A stretch of DNA of 64,000 nucleotides, taken from NCBI GenBank assembly GCA_018266795.1, contig JAFDZV010000026.1, forward strand, positions 22,941 through 86,940, in the 5' to 3' direction. The notes beneath the pieces are model-generated. The model ran no database searches. It was given only the letters and a program-made list of their open reading frames with translations, and was not told the origin of the DNA. The DNA comes from Bacteroidota bacterium. GTDB lineage: Bacteria > Bacteroidota > Ignavibacteria > OLB7. Positions 1 through 49,438 of this stretch are shown here, in pieces. Each line of letters opens with the position of its first letter. Position 1 is the stretch's first letter. The position numbers were made by a program, and so were the translations under genes.

Positions 1-22
1 CTACTGACTACTGACTACTGAC
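1..22. repeat. Heptanucleotide repeat, class A (window edge)
   Basis: Three perfect tandem copies of CTACTGA (on the minus strand TCAGTAG) lie just downstream of trpS and run off the window edge. The unit matches the degenerate TCAGTNG heptads at 40532-40629, 43711-43745 and 48884-48972. The array may extend further left. Confidence 0.75.
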
Positions 23-39384: not shown

Positions 39385-40515
39385 CTACTCCAGATTCTTG
39401 CGGAAGCGAAGGAAGCTTGCGCCGAAGATCGCGATGCCGATGGCGAGCATGCCCAGAAGCTGCGGCCACAGCTCGTTCAGGCCAACCCCCTGCAGGAAAA
39501 TGCCGCGCATGATGATCAGATAGTAGCGCAGCGGAATTGCGTAGGTAAGCGGCTGAATCCACGACGGCATGTTCTCGATCGGAAAGGAATAGCCGCTGAG
39601 GAAGAGGAACGGAGGAAGCACGAAGAACGACGTTGTGAAGCTTGCCTGCTGCTGGGTCTTGGAGATCGTGGAGATGAACAGGCCCAGCCCGAGAATCGTC
39701 ACCAGGAAGCAGAACGTCATCGCGAAGAAGAGGAGGATATTGCCGCGCATCGAAATGCCGAACACCAGCGATGCAAGGATCAGCAGGTTCATCGTGGTGA
39801 TCGTTGCGGTGATGGCGAACGGAGCCAGCTTGCCGATGATGATCTGGTAGGGCCGGATGGGGCTCACCACCAGCTGCTCCAGCGTGCCGACCTCGCGTTC
39901 CTTCACGATGGCGGTGGAACTGGCGATCACGGTGGTGATCAATATCAGCAGTCCGAGAATTCCCGGAATGAAGAAGCGCCGGCTTGCGAGGTCCGGATTG
40001 TACCACACGCGTGTCTGCGTAACCACTCCCGGAACCCTCAGCCCGCTTGCGGCAAGCCGCGTCTGCACATCCAGCAACGCCTGCTGAGAGTACGATGCAA
40101 CCACGGCGCCTGCATAGCCGGAGGCGATGCGCGCCGAGTTGCCGTCCGATCCGTCGAACAGCGCCTGCAGCGGGGCGCTCTCGTGCGCGACGATCTTCGC
40201 TCCGAAATTGGGGGGAATCACCAGCACCATCTTCGCCTCGCCATCCTGCAGCACCGTATCGGCCGATGTGTAGCGGTCCAGGTTCCGAACGATGGTAAAG
40301 TATTCGGAATTGGTGAAGCTCTGCACCAGGCGCCGGCTCTCTACGGTGTGATCGTAGTCCAGCACCGCCATCGTGATATTCTTCACGTCGAGGCTTGCAG
40401 CAAACCCGAACAGCACGAGCTGCATCAGCGGCGCAATCAGGGTAAGACTGCGCAACTGCGTGGAGCCCATGATCTCCAGGAACTGTTTCCGTATCAGCGC
40501 GAGTATCGGTTGCAT
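39385..40515 (-). CDS. ABC-2 type export permease (YhhJ/YbhR-like)
   Basis: A 376-residue membrane protein of the ABC-2 permease class. An N-terminal helix and a large extracytoplasmic region (DVKNITMAVLDYDHTVESR...) precede five C-terminal transmembrane helices (GILGLLILITTVIASSTAIVKEREVGTLEQLVVSPIRP contains the family's ERE-GT-EQ-SP motif). It is the last gene of the operon reading tetR-hlyD-ATPase-ATPase-permease-permease. The two permeases are paralogues and would form a heterodimeric channel. Substrate is unknown; drug efflux is usual for this group. About 100 bases separate it from the convergent lodB-like gene. Confidence 0.93.
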   Translation of the reverse strand: MQPILALIRKQFLEIMGSTQLRSLTLIAPLMQLVLFGFAASLDVKNITMAVLDYDHTVESRRLVQSFTNSEYFTIVRNLDRYTSADTVLQDGEAKMVLVIPPNFGAKIVAHESAPLQALFDGSDGNSARIASGYAGAVVASYSQQALLDVQTRLAASGLRVPGVVTQTRVWYNPDLASRRFFIPGILGLLILITTVIASSTAIVKEREVGTLEQLVVSPIRPYQIIIGKLAPFAITATITTMNLLILASLVFGISMRGNILLFFAMTFCFLVTILGLGLFISTISKTQQQASFTTSFFVLPPFLFLSGYSFPIENMPSWIQPLTYAIPLRYYLIIMRGIFLQGVGLNELWPQLLGMLAIGIAIFGASFLRFRKNLE

Positions 40516-40531
40516 GGGAGTAGAATCGGTT

Positions 40532-40629
40532 GTCAGTAGTCCGTGGTTAGTCAGTAGTCAGTAGTCCGTGGTTAGTAGTCAGTTGAGAAGAAGTCTTCCC
40601 TTGTCCCACTGACCAATGACCACTAACCA
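40532..40629. repeat. Heptanucleotide repeat array, class A, with dyad
   Basis: The gap between the two permease genes is filled with degenerate 7-bp units: TCAGTAG, TCCGTGG, TCAGTAG, TCAGTAG, TCCGTGG, TTAGTAG, TCAGTTG, then a short spacer and their reverse complements CACTGAC, CAATGAC, CACTAAC. TGGTTAGTAGTCA (40569-40581) can pair with TGACCACTAACCA (40617-40629), 12 of 13 bases. Two arms separated by 35 bases could form a hairpin within the operon message. Confidence 0.8.
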
Positions 40630-40633
40630 TTAT

Positions 40634-41758
40634 CTACACCGTCTTCCGCAGACGTCTGATGGCAAGGGTCATGGTCAGATTGGCGAAGATGATCAATGCC
40701 GCGAACGACGGCCAGTAGGCAGAGATCGGCGCCCCCTTCAGAAGAATGGAGCGGAGCACGATCAACAGGTACTTCGCCGGCACGATGGTTGTTATCGCAC
40801 GAAGCACCACCGGCATGTTCTCGATCGGAAAGATGAAGCCGGAGAGGAGTTGCGTTGGAAGTACGGTGGCGAAGGTCGCGAGGAAGAATGCACTCTCCTG
40901 CGTCTGCGCAACCGTGGAGATCGCCAGCCCCATGCCGAGCCCGCCGATGATGAAGAACAGCAGCGCGGCCGCGAGTACGAAGAGATTCCCCTTCACCGGA
41001 ACATCGAACAGAAGCCAGCCGGCGAGAATCATCAACGTTGCGAGAACCACTGCCACGATGAAGTACGGGATCGTTTTCCCGAACATGAACTCGCGGCTGG
41101 AGACGGGCGACACCATGATCTGCTCGATCGTTCCGCGTTCCTTCTCCCGTACGATGGAGAGGGCCGTGGAGATCACCGTGGAGATGATCATCACGTAGCC
41201 CATCAGCCCCGGGACCAGATAGCGGGAGCTTTTCAGTTCCGGGTTGAACCAGATCCGCGGCCGATAGTCCACCGGTACGTAGGCGTTCACACCCGTTCGC
41301 TCGAGCACCTGCAGGCGAAGCTGTGTGGAGTAGTCCTGCGCGAAGACGTCCGCATAGGCCGCGGCGTTGGTGGCAACGTTGGAGTTGCCGCCATTGACGA
41401 TCGCCTGCACGTTCACCGTCTCGTTCGCAAGGATCTTCCTCGAGAAGTCCGCCGGGATCACCAGGATCACATCGGCCGTCCCCCGTTCGATCAGCTCCTG
41501 CGCCCTCTCCTCCGACGGGACATAGCCCACGAGATCGAAATACTCCGAGTGCAGATACGATCCGATGAAGCGCTGCGACTCCACGGTCCTGTCCTGATCC
41601 ACCACGGCGAGCTTGACATGCTTGGTGTCCAGGTTGAGCACGAAGCCGAACAGGAGCAGGGTGAAGGTCGGGACGAAGGCGAGCATTCCCAGGGAGCGCT
41701 TGTCGCGCCAGATCTGGTAGAACTCCTTCTGCGCTATCGCCAGAATTCTCTCTATCAT
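40634..41758 (-). CDS. ABC-2 type export permease (YbhS-like)
   Basis: A 374-residue ABC-2 permease, paralogue of 39385-40515. The large periplasmic loop after the first helix contains VKLAVVDQDRTVESQRF. The family motif VREKERGTIEQIMVSPVSSREFMFGK precedes the helices. It overlaps the upstream ATPase gene by four bases and is separated from the second permease by the heptad repeat array. The pair corresponds to YbhS and YbhR of Escherichia coli. Confidence 0.93.
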   Translation of the reverse strand: MIERILAIAQKEFYQIWRDKRSLGMLAFVPTFTLLLFGFVLNLDTKHVKLAVVDQDRTVESQRFIGSYLHSEYFDLVGYVPSEERAQELIERGTADVILVIPADFSRKILANETVNVQAIVNGGNSNVATNAAAYADVFAQDYSTQLRLQVLERTGVNAYVPVDYRPRIWFNPELKSSRYLVPGLMGYVMIISTVISTALSIVREKERGTIEQIMVSPVSSREFMFGKTIPYFIVAVVLATLMILAGWLLFDVPVKGNLFVLAAALLFFIIGGLGMGLAISTVAQTQESAFFLATFATVLPTQLLSGFIFPIENMPVVLRAITTIVPAKYLLIVLRSILLKGAPISAYWPSFAALIIFANLTMTLAIRRLRKTV

Positions 41759-42696
41759 CGCCTTCTGTTCTCCTCTTCGATCAGATAGATGAAGATGTCC
41801 TCGAGCGACGGCTCGATCCGCTCCACGCGCGCAACGCCGATGCCGTTCGACTCCAGCAGGCTTCGGGCGCGGCGCCCCCCCTCATCGGGATCGGGCACAC
41901 TGATATGAATGTTCGTGCCGAACATCGATGTCTCGCCGATCCAGTCCTTCTCCCCGCCAAGAATCGTCAGCGCGTCAGCGGGCTTCGTGGTCTCGACTTC
42001 CAGGATGGCATTCTTCATGGTGGAGACCTTCAATTCCTTCGGCGAGCCGAACGCGATCAGCCGCGCGAAGTAAAGGAAGCCGATGGTGTTGCAGTGTTCC
42101 GCCTCGTCCAGGAAGTGCGTGGTCACGAAGACGGTAACGCCCTCGTCGGAGAGGCGATAGATAAGGTCCCAGAAGTTCCGGCGGCTGATCGGATCAACGC
42201 CGCCGGTGGGCTCGTCCAAGAAGACGATGCGCGGCTCGTGGAGAATGGCTGTTGCCAGCGCCAGGCGCTGCCGCAGGCCGCCCGGCAGTTCGCGCGGGCG
42301 ACGCGACTCCATCCCCTTCAGATCGGCAACCTGAATAACGTGTGCCTTGCGGGCGGCGATATTCCGGCGGGGGATTTGATAGATGCCGGCAAAGAAGTCC
42401 AGGTTCTGCTCTATCGTCAGGTCCTCGTACAGCGAGAAGCGCTGCGACATGTAGCCGATGTTGGCCTTCACCAGATCCGGCTCGCGCGCCACGTCGTAAC
42501 CGGCAACGCGCGCACCGCCGGAGGTTGGGTCCAGCAATCCGCAGAGCATGCGGATCACCGTGGACTTCCCGGCGCCGTTGGGCCCAAGGAAACCGAAGAT
42601 CTCACCGGCGCGCACGTTGAAGGTGACATCATCGACCGCAACGAAACTGCCGAAACGCTTCGTGAGGTGCGAGACCTCGATGGATGTCTCACTCAT
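41755..42696 (-). CDS. ABC exporter ATPase 2 (YbhF half)
   Basis: A 313-residue ATP-binding subunit. Walker A is GPNGAGKS in FGFLGPNGAGKST. The ABC signature is LPGGLRQRL (Ser to Pro change from LSGG), Walker B is IVFLDEPTGGVDP and the H-loop is VTTHFLDEAEH. In E. coli YbhF two such domains are fused in one chain; here they are two genes, this one and 42689-43699. Start MSETSIEVS overlaps the first ATPase's stop by eight bases, so they are translationally coupled. Confidence 0.93.
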   Translation of the reverse strand: MSETSIEVSHLTKRFGSFVAVDDVTFNVRAGEIFGFLGPNGAGKSTVIRMLCGLLDPTSGGARVAGYDVAREPDLVKANIGYMSQRFSLYEDLTIEQNLDFFAGIYQIPRRNIAARKAHVIQVADLKGMESRRPRELPGGLRQRLALATAILHEPRIVFLDEPTGGVDPISRRNFWDLIYRLSDEGVTVFVTTHFLDEAEHCNTIGFLYFARLIAFGSPKELKVSTMKNAILEVETTKPADALTILGGEKDWIGETSMFGTNIHISVPDPDEGGRRARSLLESNGIGVARVERIEPSLEDIFIYLIEEENRRR

Positions 42697-43699
42697 GTGT
42701 GGTCTCCGCATTCGTCCTCTCCCCCTGCTCAACGGCCCCCTCTCCCTCCGGCTCGCCGGCGGCCGCGCGCGCGCGTTCGATCAGCGTGATGAATACGTTC
42801 TCGAGCGTCGGCGACTTGGTGCGGACCTCGACAATCGTGATGCCGGCGCCAACCAGCACGCTGCGAATCAGATCGTTGGCATCCGCATCGGCGCCGGCAG
42901 TGTAGATGAAGTCCAGCCGGTCGCCGAAAATCTGTATGTCGTCGAAGAACGTCTTCATTGCCTCGTTCTCCTGCACGAGACCGAACGCCCGGCGCGACGG
43001 GCTGCAGACCACCTCGATCACCTTCTGCCCCAATGAACCCTTGAGCGTAGCCGGCACATCGCATGCAAGGATCGCCCCCTGGTTCATCATCGCCACACGC
43101 GTGCAGCGCTCCGCCTCGTCCAGATACGGCGTGGTAAGCATGATCGTTGTTCCCCCCTTCATCAACTCGGCAAGGAGCTTCCAGAAGTCGCGGCGCGTCA
43201 CCGGATCCACACCGGTGGTCGGCTCGTCCAGGAAGATGATCTCCGGTGTGTGGATCAGCGTACAGGCAAGCGCAAGCTTCTGCTTCATGCCGCCGGAGAG
43301 CTTGTCCGCGAGGCGCGTGCGGAACGGGCCCAGGCGGGTGAACTCCAGCAACTCCTCGCGACGCTTCCGGAAATCCTTCACGCCGTTGATGCGTGCGAAG
43401 AACTCGATGTTCTCATCGATCGAGAGATCGGTATAGAGCGAGAAACGTTGCGAGAGATATCCAATGCGCCGCTTGATCTCCTCGGCCTCCGTAAGCACGT
43501 CGAACCCGAGCAGACGTGCGCCGCCGGAGTCCGGACGAAGAATCCCGCAGAGCATGCGGATGGTGGTGGTCTTCCCGGCACCGTCCGGACCCACCAGCGC
43601 GAACATCTGGCCGCGCTCCACTTCCAGCGAAACACCGGCAACGGCCTTCACCGGTCCGAACGATTTCGCGAGCGCGTCGGTATGGATTGCGAGTGCCAC
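42689..43699 (-). CDS. ABC exporter ATPase 1 (YbhF half)
   Basis: A 336-residue ATPase starting at GTG. Walker A is GPDGAGKTT in FALVGPDGAGKTT, the signature is LSGGMKQKL, and Walker B is IIFLDEPTTGVDP with TTPYLDEAERC after it. The C-terminus has about 30 extra residues rich in Gly, Ala and Glu. The signature is canonical here while its partner has LPGG. The two ATPases are expected to work as a heterodimer with the two ABC-2 permeases and the HlyD-type adaptor. Confidence 0.93.
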   Translation of the reverse strand: MALAIHTDALAKSFGPVKAVAGVSLEVERGQMFALVGPDGAGKTTTIRMLCGILRPDSGGARLLGFDVLTEAEEIKRRIGYLSQRFSLYTDLSIDENIEFFARINGVKDFRKRREELLEFTRLGPFRTRLADKLSGGMKQKLALACTLIHTPEIIFLDEPTTGVDPVTRRDFWKLLAELMKGGTTIMLTTPYLDEAERCTRVAMMNQGAILACDVPATLKGSLGQKVIEVVCSPSRRAFGLVQENEAMKTFFDDIQIFGDRLDFIYTAGADADANDLIRSVLVGAGITIVEVRTKSPTLENVFITLIERARAAAGEPEGEGAVEQGERTNAETTHE

Positions 43700-43710
43700 G
43701 ATCGAGTTGG

Positions 43711-43745
43711 TCAGTCGTTAATGGTCAGTTGTCAGTCGTCGGTCA
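43711..43745. repeat. Heptanucleotide repeat array, class A
   Basis: Five in-phase 7-bp units, TCAGTCG TTAATGG TCAGTTG TCAGTCG TCGGTCA, lie just upstream of the GTG start of ATPase 1, between it and the hlyD-like gene. Only one arm of the dyad is visible. Confidence 0.75.
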
Positions 43746-43773
43746 GGTACCGCGCTGGCCACGGGCGCAACAC

Positions 43774-44775
43774 CTATTTCGACGGCGCCGTGCGGGCGCC
43801 AAGCCTCGCCTCGGCGGTGATGCCGGTCTTGAGTTCGCCGTTGGGATTGGCAACGTCGATCTGCACCTCGAACACCAGCTTCACGCGGTCATCCTTCGTC
43901 TGCACATTCTTCGGCGTGAACTCCGCCGTCGGCGAGATGTAGGTAACACGGCCGCGATAGATCTTGTCGTTGAACGTGTCGATCTTCACATCCGCCGTAT
44001 CCCCCACTTTCACGCGCCCCAGCTCGTTCTCCGCCACATAGATCTTCAGCTTCACCGGATTGACCTTGGAGATCGTCACCACACCTGTGCCGATGTTCAC
44101 GAACTCTCCCTGATCGACCGCACGGCGGGTAACGATGCCGTCGCCGGGAGCAAGCGCCACACAGTCCTCGATCTTCTTGTCAAGCGCCACGACCTGTGCG
44201 GCGGCCTGCTCGCGCCGCGCCCGTGCGCTCGAGACATCCTCCGGCCGGGAACCTCTGCGCAGCTTCTCCAGTCCCAGCTTCGCAGCGTTGTACTGCCGCA
44301 CGGTGATGTCGTACCGGTTCTTCGCGTTCTCGTAATCCTTCTCGGCAACGCTTCCAACCTTCAGCAGATCACCCAGGCGCCGCACGTCGTCGCCGGCGTT
44401 GTCCATGGCGAGCTTTGCCTGGCGCAGCGCCTCGTCTGCCTGCCCGACATCCTCGGAGCGCGCGCCGTTCTTCACCAGGTCGTACTGGAAGCGCGCAACG
44501 TCGACGCCGGCCGCCAACTGGCTTCGCTGCAGCCGGAGATCGCTGTCGTCAACCGTGAAGAGGGTGTCGCCGGCATGCACCACGTCCCCCTCGTGCACGT
44601 ACATGTGCACCAGCGGTCCGGCAGCCCGGGCGCTGATGGTGATGTCGGTAGTCTCGATGATGCCGGACGCCTCCAGCGAGCCATCGTCCTTCTTCGAACA
44701 ACCGGTCACGGAAATCGCAACGATCGCCGCCGTGAGCGGAACAAACCGGAACACCAACCTTGAAAGAGCCTTCAT
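43774..44775 (-). CDS. HlyD-type membrane fusion lipoprotein (YbhG-like)
   Basis: A 333-residue periplasmic adaptor linking the inner-membrane ABC exporter to the outer membrane. The signal ends in a lipobox, VTGC. Then come the biotinyl-lipoyl half (ISARAAGPLVHMYVHEGDVVHAGDTL), a long coiled-coil (QRSQLAAGVDVARFQYDL to EKKIED) and the second lipoyl half with the beta-barrel (LAPGDGIVTRRAVDQGEFV, LKIYVAENELGRVKVG). It starts the structural genes of the exporter after tetR. YbhG of E. coli is the nearest named relative; an outer-membrane TolC-type partner is not encoded here. Confidence 0.93.
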   Translation of the reverse strand: MKALSRLVFRFVPLTAAIVAISVTGCSKKDDGSLEASGIIETTDITISARAAGPLVHMYVHEGDVVHAGDTLFTVDDSDLRLQRSQLAAGVDVARFQYDLVKNGARSEDVGQADEALRQAKLAMDNAGDDVRRLGDLLKVGSVAEKDYENAKNRYDITVRQYNAAKLGLEKLRRGSRPEDVSSARARREQAAAQVVALDKKIEDCVALAPGDGIVTRRAVDQGEFVNIGTGVVTISKVNPVKLKIYVAENELGRVKVGDTADVKIDTFNDKIYRGRVTYISPTAEFTPKNVQTKDDRVKLVFEVQIDVANPNGELKTGITAEARLGARTAPSK

Positions 44776-44858
44776 TGTATCGTCGTGTTCGTTGAACTGA
44801 ATCTGGGATCGTCCGTCCGTCGCGAGCCGCGGCCGTACGGCCGGCAGGCAGAGGCCCA

Positions 44859-45554
44859 TCAACGGCGCCGCGGGCGAGACTGGCCGGGAGGGCCGCCGCT
44901 GCCACCCGGCAGCGCAAAAAGTTTCGATGCAGGCCGCGTCTCATCTCCACCACCGATCAACTCGCTCTTGGCCTCCTCCGTCAGCATTCCCTCCAGCATC
45001 ACACGCAGGATGGAACGGAAGACGTCGGGAGGTGTATGCGGCACAAGCGCCAGGGTTTCCGGAGTCATCATGTGCTGCACCAGACCGTAGAACATCATCA
45101 CGAAGAGCTGCGGATCCACGTCGCGCCGGAGCTTGCCGCGGCGCGCACCCTGTGCGAAGAGCTGCTCGAAGAGAGGAAGTATCCGGTCGCGCCGGAACTC
45201 CTCCATCTCGCGGACGATATGCGGTGCCTTGCGCTGCATATCCTCGAAGTGAGATCGCCCTATGCGGGAGATCCGCATGCCGATCGTGGTCATGATCGTC
45301 CGCAGCTTCACCACGAACGGCATCTCGCGCGCCTCCACCAGCCGCTTGAGCTCCCCCTCAAGCTCGTCCTTCATCTGCCGCATGCAGACGGCCAGCATAT
45401 CATCCTTGCTCTCGAAGTGCAGGTAGAGCGTCTTCTTGCTGATGCCGAGCTCCGATGCGATCTCGTCGGTCGTTACGCTGCAGAAGCCGCGTGCGAAGAA
45501 GAGCTCCTGCGCCTTCCCGATAATCTGGTCACGTATGGTCTGGTCCGATTCCAT
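44859..45554 (-). CDS. TetR-family transcriptional regulator
   Basis: A 231-residue TetR regulator. The helix-turn-helix occupies about residues 8-52: IRDQIIGKAQELFFARGFCSVTTDEIASELGISKKTLYLHFESKDDM. The rest is the ligand-binding domain, with a Gly/Pro/Arg-rich tail. It is the first gene of the export operon and lies 83 bases before hlyD, like CecR before ybhGFSR in E. coli, so it likely represses its own operon. An inverted repeat lies upstream (45586-45613). Confidence 0.93.
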   Translation of the reverse strand: MESDQTIRDQIIGKAQELFFARGFCSVTTDEIASELGISKKTLYLHFESKDDMLAVCMRQMKDELEGELKRLVEAREMPFVVKLRTIMTTIGMRISRIGRSHFEDMQRKAPHIVREMEEFRRDRILPLFEQLFAQGARRGKLRRDVDPQLFVMMFYGLVQHMMTPETLALVPHTPPDVFRSILRVMLEGMLTEEAKSELIGGGDETRPASKLFALPGGSGGPPGQSRPRRR

Positions 45555-46207: not shown

Positions 46208-46220
46208 GATGGCAGCAGCT

Positions 46221-46365
46221 GGTTCCTGGTTTGCAGTGCTTGGTATTTGGTTCCTGGCTCTTGGCGTTTGGTGCCTGGCGGCGCATCTGCCGGAGACAAC
46301 CGGATTGCGAAGCCTCAGGAACCAAGCACGAAACACAAGGCGCGAAGTACAACGCACCAGGATCA
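46221..46365. repeat. Heptanucleotide repeat array, class B, with dyad
   Basis: Left arm, nine in-phase 7-bp units: GGTTCCT GGTTTGC AGTGCTT GGTATTT GGTTCCT GGCTCTT GGCGTTT GGTGCCT GGCGGCG (46221-46283). Right arm, in reverse complement register: AGGAACC AAGCACG AAACACA AGGCGCG AAGTACA ACGCACC AGGATCA (46317-46365). The two arms share the heptad AAGNACC on opposite strands. It fills the gap between two minus-strand genes and touches the end of yraN. Confidence 0.8.
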
Positions 46366-46743
46366 GAACGCTCCGATGTAGTGCCGGATCTCCGGCCTGC
46401 CTCCCGTGCCGGTCACATAGTCTATCGCCACCACATCGAATCGGGCCTCGTAGTCCTCCACCTGATTGATGAAGACGAATCCCTGGGCCACCGCCCGGAT
46501 GGTACGCCGCTTCGCCATCGTGATGGACTCCTCCGGCAGCCCGAAGCCGTGGGAGCGCCGCGCCTTCACCTCCACGAACACGTACACGGCCCCATCGCGC
46601 ATTACGATGTCGATCTCTCCGGCCCGGCCGAATCGGAAGTTCTTCTTCACCAGCCGGTACCCCAGACCAAGCAGATAGTTCAGTGCGATCTCCTCGTGCT
46701 CCGCACCGAAATCCCGGCGATTGAATCCCCGGTGCTCATCCAT
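46363..46743 (-). CDS. YraN (UPF0102) family protein
   Basis: A 126-residue protein of the YraN/UPF0102 family, which has an endonuclease-like fold with the motif GEIDIVMRDGAVYVFVEVKAR. Its E-D-ExK pattern is seen in Holliday-junction resolvase-like nucleases. Start MDEHRGFNRRDFG matches the usual length. The biochemical role is unclear in all species. It is flanked by the class B heptad array downstream and a hairpin-rich gap upstream. Confidence 0.93.
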   Translation of the reverse strand: MDEHRGFNRRDFGAEHEEIALNYLLGLGYRLVKKNFRFGRAGEIDIVMRDGAVYVFVEVKARRSHGFGLPEESITMAKRRTIRAVAQGFVFINQVEDYEARFDVVAIDYVTGTGGRPEIRHYIGAF

Positions 46744-47082
46744 GACGCGCCTCCCGATAAGGGTATCATGGGGGAAGCCGCAGCAACATCGCCAAATCGG
46801 CCCAGAATTCCGCAATCGCTTCAAATACGCATTCAGACGCCGTTCCACGGCCGCCACTTATTCACCTCCCACCGCCACTTGCTCGATGGAATAGGCCAGT
46901 TGCTCGTTTGCCGTAACGGCCGCGAAATGCGAGCGCGATATTTGTGCCGTACCACGAAGGAAGCTCCCACACAATGAGCAGAGGATGGCGCCGTAACGGC
47001 GGCCGGGAAGGGATGGTGAACAAATCGGATAAGGGTTGGCCCGGAGCATAGCGCCGGAAGTTTCCGGATCAACCCACTCCCT

Positions 47083-47660: not shown

Positions 47661-48872
47661 CTACTTCACCAGCCGGAGGAACTTGCGGCGCCCGACCTTC
47701 AGCACCGAATCGCCATCAGGCACGTGAACGAAGTTCACATCCTCCACCTTTGTTCCATCCAGCGAGACTCCGCCTCCCTGAATCAGACGGCGCGCCTCTC
47801 CTTTCGATGCCGCCAGCCCGGCGCGCACAATCAGGTCGATCAACGGTGTCGGCTCCTCAACGGCGAAGCTCTCCATCTCCTCCGGCACATCACGCTTCAC
47901 GAAGATCCGGTCGAACTCCTCCTCCGCCTTGGCAGCCGTTCCCTCACTGGTGTAGCGGGCAACCACCTCGCGAGCGAGACGCCGCTTGGCGTCGCGGGGA
48001 TGCAGCGCTCCGCTCTCGAGATCGGCAACGATCCCTGCAACCTGCGCGTTCGGGTAGAAGAGGGCCAGACGGAAGTACGTGGGCATCAGCTCATCCGGCA
48101 TCGAGAGCAGCTTGCCGAACATGTCGTTCGGAAAATCGTGCAGGCCCACGTAGTTGCCCAGCGACTTGGACATCTTCTCCCTGCCGTCCGTTCCGACAAG
48201 AAGGGGGCAGGTGATGATCGCCTGCGGATCGATACCGTAGGAGCGTTGAAGCTCGCGGCCCACGAGAAGGTTGAACTTCTGATCGGTGCCGCCAAGCTCT
48301 ACATCCGCCTTGATCGCAACGGAGTCCATTCCCTGTGCAAGCGGGTAGAGAAACTCGTGGAGCGAAATCGGCTGCTCCCCTTCGAAGCGCTTGTGGAAGT
48401 CATCACGCTCGAGCATCTGCGAGACGGTGTAACGCGAGGCCAGCGCGATCACTTCCGCGAAGTTCATCTTCGCCAGCCACTCGGAGTTGTACACCATCTG
48501 AATGCGCTTGCCGGCGAGCACCTTCGTGGCCTGTTCGAAGTAGCTCCGCCCATTGCGCTGCGTCTCCTCGATCGAAAGCGCGGGGCGAGTCTTGGAACGT
48601 CCGCTCGGGTCGCCGATCATCGCCGTGAAGTCCCCCACGATCAGGATGGCCTGGTGCCCCAGGTCCTGGAAGTCGCGCATCTTCTGCAGCACGACGGCGT
48701 GCCCCAGATGAAGATCGGGCGCTGACGGATCGGCTCCCAGCTTCACGTTGAGAGGCTTGCCGCTCGCGATCGAGCGCTCGAGCTTCTGCGCGAGTTCCTC
48801 CTCCGGGATGATCTCCTCCGTGCAGCGACGGATCAGATCCATCTGTTCGTTGACCGATGGGAAAGTGGGCAT
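47661..48872 (-). CDS. tyrS: Tyrosyl-tRNA synthetase
   Basis: A 403-residue class I synthetase that charges tRNA-Tyr. HIGH is HLGH (55-58) in DLHLGHAVV and KMSKS is at 233-237. GGTDQKFNLLVGREL binds tyrosine and ATP. The C-terminal S4-like RNA-binding domain carries LIQGGGVSLDGTKVEDV. The N-terminal spacing is that of the TyrZ-type branch. A class A heptad array lies upstream, between it and smpB. Confidence 0.97.
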   Translation of the reverse strand: MPTFPSVNEQMDLIRRCTEEIIPEEELAQKLERSIASGKPLNVKLGADPSAPDLHLGHAVVLQKMRDFQDLGHQAILIVGDFTAMIGDPSGRSKTRPALSIEETQRNGRSYFEQATKVLAGKRIQMVYNSEWLAKMNFAEVIALASRYTVSQMLERDDFHKRFEGEQPISLHEFLYPLAQGMDSVAIKADVELGGTDQKFNLLVGRELQRSYGIDPQAIITCPLLVGTDGREKMSKSLGNYVGLHDFPNDMFGKLLSMPDELMPTYFRLALFYPNAQVAGIVADLESGALHPRDAKRRLAREVVARYTSEGTAAKAEEEFDRIFVKRDVPEEMESFAVEEPTPLIDLIVRAGLAASKGEARRLIQGGGVSLDGTKVEDVNFVHVPDGDSVLKVGRRKFLRLVK

Positions 48873-48883
48873 CTCGATGTATC

Positions 48884-48972
48884 GTCAGTCGTTAGTAGTC
48901 AGTTGTCAGTAGTTCGTGGTCAGTTGTGTGCAGTCCGTATCAACTACTGACTACCGACAACTCACCACTGAC
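48884..48972. repeat. Heptanucleotide repeat array, class A, with dyad
   Basis: Units such as TCAGTCG, TTAGTAG, TCAGTTG and TCAGTAG make the left arm (48884-48914). Their reverse complements (TACTGAC, TACCGAC, AACTCAC, CACTGAC) make the right arm (48942-48972). The 31-base arms pair at 26 of 31 positions across a 27-base spacer, so a long imperfect hairpin can form between smpB and tyrS. Confidence 0.85.
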
Positions 48973-48979
48973 ACGGCTC

Positions 48980-49438
48980 TCATTCCTCCCCGCGCCTGGT
49001 GCGGCGTTCGTCGTCGCGCTTCTTTATGGTGTCGCGCTTGTCGTACAGCTTCTTGCCGCGAGCCACGCCGATCTGCACTTTGAGATTCGGTCCCTTGAAA
49101 TAGACCGAAAGCGGAACCAGCGTAAGCCCCTTCTCCGCGATGCGCTGGATGAGCTTGTCCAGCTCACGGCGATGCAGCAGCAGCTTGCGCGGGCGCGACG
49201 GCTCATGATTGTTCACGTTGCCGTGCGTGTACGGCTGGATGGTGCACCCCTCCAGCCACAGCTCGCTTCCACGTGCGGAGGCATAGCTCTCCTGCAGCGA
49301 TATGTGTCCCTCGCGCACGGATTTCACCTCCGTTCCAAGCAACACGATTCCCGCCTCGACGGTATCGAGGATCTCGAACTCGAACCGCGCCTTCCGATTG
49401 GAGGCAACGTTCTTTATGGCAAGCTTGTCATCGGCCAT
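48980..49438 (-). CDS. smpB: SsrA-binding protein
   Basis: A 152-residue OB-fold RNA-binding protein that delivers tmRNA to stalled ribosomes for trans-translation. Family segments include NVASNRKARFEFEILDTVEAGIVLLGTEVKSVREG, then LHRRELDKLIQRIAEKGLTLVPLSVYFKGPNLKVQIGVARGKKLYDKRD. The Lys/Arg-rich tail is typical. No tmRNA gene is seen in the window. tyrS follows downstream across the heptad array. Confidence 0.97.
   Translation of the reverse strand: MADDKLAIKNVASNRKARFEFEILDTVEAGIVLLGTEVKSVREGHISLQESYASARGSELWLEGCTIQPYTHGNVNNHEPSRPRKLLLHRRELDKLIQRIAEKGLTLVPLSVYFKGPNLKVQIGVARGKKLYDKRDTIKKRDDERRTRRGEE

Follow-up and report, generated by a model that had tools for sequence, protein, structure and literature searches.

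The window (the whole 64-kb stretch of DNA analysed here, taken from the genome that we label G000) carries arrays of seven-nucleotide units, or heptads, in the gaps between its genes. One such gap separates tyrS (47661..48872, minus strand; TIGR00234) from a gene on the same strand (48980..49438), which we take to be smpB from the relatives found, and holds two arms of the unit class that we call A. The arm on the stop side of smpB (48943..48972, minus strand) reads (TCAGTNG)n on the sense strand and that on the start side of tyrS (48882..48927, plus strand) reads (CNACTGA)n in the mRNA; together they form a dyad that begins 7 nt past the stop codon of smpB and ends 9 nt short of the tyrS ATG (48872). 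Two 31-nt arms within 48882-48972 agree at 26 of 31 positions (inverted score 20.0), just as the first-pass annotation had reported, and the degenerate TCAGTNG units that it had named at 1-22, 40532-40629, 43711-43745 and 48884-48972 are present at all four places. TRF detects arrays of period 7/14/21 in the window at 1-22, 40535-40583 and 48884-48927, and the curated families of Rfam give no match to the window at gathering scores.

The region 39385-45554 is an RbbA-like export operon that comprises two ATPases, two permeases, a HlyD adaptor and a TetR-type regulator, and class A arrays are found in two of its gaps. In the first, an arm located 4 nt past the stop codon of an ABC permease gene (arm 40606..40629, minus strand; gene 40634-41758) faces an arm upstream of the next permease gene (arm 40548..40585, plus strand; gene 39385-40515), the degenerate units of which extend back to about 40526. 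The second gap, between the HlyD and ATPase genes, contains a single arm without a facing partner (43708..43743, plus strand). Arrays placed inside this ABC exporter operon argue against plain transcription termination, a point already made in the first-pass annotation.

A further pair, missing from that annotation, consists of class B units: 46220..46278 (plus strand, CTTGGTN) is faced by 46316..46359 (minus strand), which lies 3 nt from the stop side of a UPF0102 gene (46363-46857). Another class A arm (1..22, minus strand) is located downstream of trpS, the stop codon of which is at 53, and its left neighbour is an assembly gap (Ns); since the array abuts the N run, its partner may be missing. 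Elsewhere in G000 arrays likewise sit at N runs or at a contig end (C28, about 96,379-96,442; C5:1-14), so that true array lengths and partners are probably underestimated.

Period, unit classes and polarity

The sampled part of G000 amounts to 1.226 of 5.97 Mb. Contigs C2, C5, C10 and C28 were picked for listed doublets, and array densities in this genome are therefore biased upward; order and position are less affected. For comparison, G001 is a relative from the same genus, and G003 and G004 belong to another genus of the same family. Genes were called with a small purpose-written codon-usage caller, and the annotation is uncurated.

Enrichment of TCAGTNG over shuffled sequence had been proposed as a check on the heptads. 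It is borne out genome-wide by tandem doublets, of which the 5.97 Mb of G000 contain 255 (153 + 102) against 0 + 0 for the reversed pattern, but not by single units in the window, which number 31 against 27.1 +/- 4.7 in shuffled sequence (26 of 100 shuffles reach 31); as proposed, the test would thus fail on single heptads. A class-free scan for identity at lag 7 detects 65 arrays in G000 (1.226 Mb scanned), 78 in G004 (365 kb) and 32 in G003 (391 kb). Control lags of 4, 5, 8, 10 and 11 give 1-3, 0-5 and 1-5 arrays in G000, G004 and G003, respectively, and lags 13 and 16 give 8 and 9 in G000, 11 and 3 in G004, and 9 and 1 in G003. One lag-7 array per genome falls inside a called gene.

The class scan of the 1.226 Mb of G000 yields 128 arms; 4 of these are unplaced and left out of the gap counts, and the rest lie in 72 gaps. 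No arm of the scanned classes falls within a called gene, in agreement with the intergenic placement described earlier. In this sample arrays are present in 17 of 76 convergent, 27 of 184 and 22 of 240 tandem, and 6 of 85 divergent gaps, and the constant association with minus-strand genes that was noted in the window is thus a local accident. The scan string CNTGGTT served poorly as a control, being almost class B read in another phase. When copies were compared beyond their arms, as for a MITE or dispersed repeat, 12 of 43 array-bearing G000 gaps had a masked segment in common with another gap, and certain modules in G004 and spacers in phages recur as well. Dispersed intergenic repeats of a separate family link 81 of 670 G000 gaps, only 6 of which contain heptad arrays.

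The unit classes of G000 are A (GTCAGTN, 35 arrays), D (GAGTKAT-like, 13 arrays) and B (TTGGTNC, 9 arrays), while G004 has class A together with GAAGAGT, GAATGNC, GGGNATC, AGGAAGT and GGTNATT. Every class combines nearly invariant positions with one or two free ones. Among the 388 class A units of G000, successive positions are G (0.99), T (0.94), C (0.76) or T (0.22), A (0.77) or G (0.15), G (0.91) and T (0.95), and the seventh is occupied by all four bases. Adjacent units share their free base above expectation (0.372 vs 0.283), and one array (G000 C2:185375) contains 15 perfect TCAGTGG units. Slipped-strand expansion, which had been suggested for the heptads in general, might explain some arrays such as this one, but neither their polarity nor a seventh position that stays free next to four that are 91-99% fixed.

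Neighbouring arms in G000 are directed inward, toward each other, in 41 cases and outward in none (6 are ++ and 5 --), and both arms are of the same class in all 41 inward pairs. Stop-side arms lie a median of 5 nt past the stop codon, with 54 of 71 within 12 nt, and start-side arms a median of 43 nt from the start. When polarity is scored without regard to class, the G-richer strand of the arrays points away from the nearest stop codon in ratios of 28:2 in G000, 21:5 in G004 and 14:2 in G003, whereas array-free flanks at stops give 238:241, 36:42 and 40:61; these lag-7 counts leave out ties, the one array per genome inside a called gene, and arrays situated over 60 bp away from the end of a gene (15, 26 and 9). 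Near starts the arrays give 14:2, 13:0 and 2:0 and array-free flanks 356:168, 70:17 and 101:27 (G000, G004 and G003), and since the latter already lean the same way, the start-side bias is partly general. Over the three genomes together, the order of arrays is inward in 34 cases and outward in 1, with 7 ++ and 13 --. No clear gradient of growth is seen at the inner array end, inner and outer units being about equally regular.

Relatives and phages

Doublets number 427 in G003 and 487 in G004 and are absent from the entire genome of G001, in 140 kb of which a single lag-7 array is found, inside a called gene. In the orthologous export operon of G001, the HlyD-ATPase gap is about 30 nt long and has no array. 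RAYT transposition was rejected as a source of the arrays, since G003 has no match to PF01797 (Y1 transposase) and the doublet-free genomes G001 and G002 have 3 and 4. Of 24 orthologous gaps in G003 and G004 (flanks about 88% identical), 7 contain arrays, 2 of them in both species; turnover this fast is not predicted by a conserved function. Other repeats are inserted into some arrays.

Mosaic repeats such as TTCGACGGGCTCAGCATGAGCGG and CCCTCTCCCACC recur beside heptads across G003 and G004 gaps. Some dyads have loops with inverted-repeat inserts of 100-250 bp (G000 C2:65350-65790 and C1:154420-155000; G003 C30:29829-30330), with ends such as TCTCATAA/TTATGAGA or CACCTTACGCA/TGCGTAAGGTG, as if MITE-like elements target arrays.

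The inward pairs of G003 and G004 join different classes in 20 of 22 cases; in the class scan of G004, 24 inward pairs are of different classes and 1 of the same class, and 6 pairs are outward. Within the phylum at least one doublet is present in 117 of 395 genomes, with many doublets in few. Twenty stretches from nine further genomes of the phylum include 10 inward pairs and no outward pair; nearest-gene polarity in these stretches (stop 12:3, start 4:3) is less pronounced, an effect of counting merged arms as a single one. Among 79 loci fetched by smpB similarity there are only five lag-7 arrays (L080, L043, L083, L087 and L097), of other classes; at L080 (labelled Oscillospiraceae) GTTGACA-like units form an inward dyad.

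Arrays are also carried by phages. A scan of IMG/VR with 3.7 TCAGTNG units matched 90 stretches, compared with 11 for the reversed string, and the 80 loci analysed (59 clusters) have 112 inward, 5 outward, 20 ++ and 16 -- neighbouring arms. A scan with TCAGTNA gave 80 loci from at least 120 stretches, and in the 74 that are new (34 clusters) the corresponding numbers are 69, 5, 6 and 21. Median distances in the TCAGTNG and TCAGTNA sets are 3 and 1 nt on the stop side and 17 and 15 nt on the start side, and lone arms are also common. The G-richer strand is the sense strand in the first arm after a stop in 97 of 153 cases (TCAGTNG) and 131 of 147 (TCAGTNA); for the last arm ahead of a start, it is the C-richer strand that is sense, in 121 of 141 and 66 of 139. 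In 90 phage dyads from tandem gaps, arrays fill a median of 86% of the gap.

Six clusters hold a contig with at least three dyad gaps. Among gaps of 25-500 nt, arms are present in 9 of 9 in the late operon of L290 (both arms in 8), 12 of 14 in L381 (both in 10), 9 of 11 in L271 (both in 5), 6 of 10 in L292 (both in 5), 6 of 8 in L286 (both in 4), and 4 of 10 in L406 (both in 4). PHROG matches identify phage genes in all of them. L290 has head-tail adaptor and neck genes, L271 a tape measure gene, L286 terminase and portal genes, L292 head and protease genes, and L406 portal and tail genes; L381 has transposition proteins and an endolysin, of families that make it presumably Mu-like.

In L381, L290 and L301 a heptad dyad occupies most intergenic gaps, and many spacers share AAAGGCAAAA-like words, which suggests that the elements are partly copied from gap to gap within these phages. 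Viral array pairs about 1.7-1.8 kb apart were considered as transposon ends; this reading was discarded, as, of the intervals inspected, that in L290 is a structural-block gene between two dyads and that in L332 is ordinary sequence with several overlapping ORFs. A distant search of cultured phage records gave no match for L290:1800-3400, nor did these records match a 61-nt heptad query, for which the low-complexity filter may hide matches. Our literature search in PMC found no account of heptad pairs in phages.

Pairing between facing arms

The dyads of G000 fold better than dinucleotide shuffles (median z -3.64, with 26 of 31 below -2), and the mixed-class pairs of G004 hardly fold (median z -1.5, with 5 of 19 below -2). 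Facing arms avoid complementarity, matching each other below chance. In G000, their agreement at free positions is 0.219 against 0.265 when permuted (183 of 5000 permutations are as low). For phages, the 90 tandem-gap dyads were oriented along the message before the arms were compared; within a dyad, the two free positions agree at 0.222, compared with 0.321 +/- 0.015 when the arms come from other dyads of that cluster (0 of 3000 permutations as low), figures that are inflated by the non-independence of related dyads.

Predicted stems give the same picture when a dyad's own arms are compared with arms swapped between gaps, which pair more strongly. The values for phages are -27.6 vs -31.8 kcal/mol for inner and -25.3 vs -28.4 for outer halves (0 of 300 each), again inflated by related dyads, and for G000 they are -16.5 vs -18.7 kcal/mol for inner halves (0 of 300), with no difference for outer halves (74 of 300). 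With one contig per phage cluster (39 dyads), the inner halves give -19.5 vs -21.5 kcal/mol (0 of 2000) and the effect on outer halves is weaker (27 of 2000). Among six single phage contigs, the inner halves of L292 show the opposite direction and two contigs show no effect.

Because facing arms are alike less often than expected by chance, a simple hairpin fails as an explanation. A compensated hairpin was likewise rejected, given that arms match those of their own dyad no better than those of other dyads. At position 3 of class A in tandem gaps of G000, C-to-T variants make up 35 of 110 in start-side arms and 23 of 141 in stop-side arms (Fisher p = 0.004), a twofold excess on the start side; they are rarer, not commoner, in the stop-side arm, contrary to an asymmetry due to RNA G-U wobble. 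Copy-and-paste of arm sequences predicts shared unit orders, and the opposite is seen, with 2 shared three-unit words vs 16.5 in shuffles. A role in RNA stability, as put forward in the first-pass annotation, may still be envisaged, although the arms are not co-adapted for pairing.

Known heptad systems and possible functions

The architecture of paired heptad arrays is already known. Rehm et al. (2015; PMC4692102) described GGGNATC and GGGGA(C/T)T heptads in Xanthomonas and Nostoc, with 70 and 75 convergent pairs in two Xanthomonas genomes. According to the available text of that paper, these heptads share with the arrays reported here the tandem seven-base unit with at least one free position, the intergenic location, convergent (inward) pairs, proximity to stop codons, a G-rich strand that is coding after stops and non-coding before starts, and rarity between divergent genes; class F of G004 (GGGNATC) is the same heptad as the Xanthomonas unit. 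GGG runs are absent from the consensus of classes A (GTCAGTN), B (TTGGTNC) and D (GAGTNAT), and only class F has one. In contrast to the published heptads, classes A, B, D and H, which have no GGG tracts, are unable to form the quadruplex proposed there; the arrays otherwise resemble that kind, without the quadruplex. They also differ in having several classes per genome and mixed-class pairs, in faster turnover (2 of 7 array gaps shared, compared with 83%), and in phage carriage and arm avoidance, the word "phage" being absent from the text available. The new features are unit classes that lack the quadruplex yet keep this polarity, pairs of mixed class, phage operons packed with pairs, and the avoidance between facing arms.

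The TAACTGA direct repeats of Beggiatoaceae, Cyanobacteria and Bacteroidetes (MacGregor 2015, PMC4679880) are one base apart from class A read as CNACTGA, and both are mostly intergenic, directed toward start codons and sporadic across phyla. As far as that source describes them, the repeats of the BOGUAY genome are almost all single arrays before starts, with one inverted case in 170, whereas here pairs dominate and the stop-side arm is tightly placed. The unit here is CNACTGA rather than TAACTGA, and TCAGTNA units occur in viral contigs. In Geobacter metallireducens (PMC2700814, available in part), tandem 7- or 8-nt units similarly form mostly opposite-strand pairs at variable distance, with insertion sequences nearby; the units differ and were interpreted as sites of the global regulators IHF/HU. 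The relation to cyanobacterial heptanucleotide repeats (STRR) drawn in the first-pass annotation holds in that these, too, are seven-base units able to form a hairpin between genes, with other unit sequences in the accessible part of the report (PMC2670836). Nothing indicates that the DNA studied here is itself cyanobacterial; its nearest named relative is a MAG labelled Chlorobiota.

We favour, with somewhat less than even confidence, the interpretation that the arrays are gene-boundary elements, that is, transcribed intercistronic spacers that fold into an imperfect stem. Such an element would read stop codon, (TCAGTNG)n, spacer, (CNACTGA)n, start region, its G-richer strands running toward each other. 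Units might multiply by slippage in 7-nt steps, and arrays would be kept only in gaps, replacing unconstrained DNA up to the stop codon and the ribosome-binding region. With arms of the same class, the transcript could fold into a long stem, interrupted at the free positions. Without stopping RNA polymerase, this stem would keep neighbouring messages apart and shield them, as a spacer or insulator, from 3' decay and from ribosomes running on. Long perfect inverted repeats are unstable at the DNA level and, at the RNA level, a target of double-strand ribonucleases; perfectly complementary arms would therefore be lost by counter-selection or deletion, which would cause the variable positions of facing arms to differ. 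The strongest evidence against the stem as a general function comes from the mixed-class pairs of G003 and G004, which hardly fold and in which polarity persists without pairing.

A possible, if doubtful, alternative is that the arrays are a neutral filler, generated anywhere by 7-nt slippage, surviving only between genes and without function. Arrays would then gradually replace unconstrained DNA, and the stop-abutting position would merely mark where constraint starts. This leaves the inward polarity at stops unaccounted for (28:2 in G000 against near parity in array-free flanks), and it is difficult to reconcile with fixed positions beside a free seventh or with arrays in nearly all gaps of compact phage operons. 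It does agree with the perfect runs of up to 15 units, the free base shared by adjacent units, longer unit orders that are not copied between loci, the fast turnover between G003 and G004, and the absence of arrays in G001.

Each heptad could instead serve one subunit of a protein that binds DNA or RNA and loads from both gene ends, which we consider distinctly unlikely. At least three unrelated classes per genome would need as many proteins, and no candidate was found; a fixed core with free positions in every class is what such sites would look like, and binding has been proposed both for the Geobacter metallireducens pairs (IHF/HU; PMC2700814) and, in the form of a regulator, for TAACTGA (PMC4679880).

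It is very unlikely that the arrays are transcription terminators after genes, acting two-way between convergent genes. Their stop-abutting position and their frequency in convergent relative to divergent gaps are compatible with such a role, and in the accessible account of Xanthomonas citri, quadruplex-forming heptads coincide with transcript starts or ends more often than control repeats do (PMC4692102). The location of arrays inside the export operon and between most genes of phage late operons, as well as mixed-class pairs that fail to fold, argues against it. Moreover, the U tract of an intrinsic terminator is nearly absent in G000: only 2 of 82 arm ends have at least 5 T in the next 10 nt, and U-tract hairpins follow 3 of 81 array-bearing vs 16 of 495 array-free stops, which further weakens the terminator idea of the first-pass annotation.

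Barely plausible, finally, are end-healing scars, comparable to head-to-head telomere fusions, in which a polymerase would extend broken 3' ends with G-richer heptads before the ends are joined: this predicts arms born independent and inward order whatever their class, as in the mixed pairs of G003 and G004, but we know of no such enzyme (our search covered RAYT only), inner and outer units are about equally regular, arms in G000 always match in class, and the G004 class count has 6 outward beside 25 inward pairs.

Beyond the gene-boundary interpretation favoured above, it is conceivable, though rather unlikely, that one gene-boundary element, specified by nothing but period 7 and polarity, is common to bacteria and their phages. 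Its base sequence would be interchangeable and its arms would avoid complementarity. The free positions seem to be present from birth, since arrays turn over within a genus and yet carry all four bases there, and some activity working in 7-nt steps would then build or maintain arrays on both sides of gaps. If so, this might be a templated or register-locked extension of 3' ends, or a periodic binding protein. Phage contigs with pairs in most gaps offer small systems suited to direct testing, and arm avoidance, a prediction that can be measured, distinguishes selection for a hairpin from other models. So far, heptameric repeats have been described case by case, each sequence with an explanation of its own (quadruplex, translational site, IHF site or hairpin). 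That the same architecture recurs here in several families and in phages, with units to which none of these explanations applies, suggests period and polarity, not sequence, as the shared cause.
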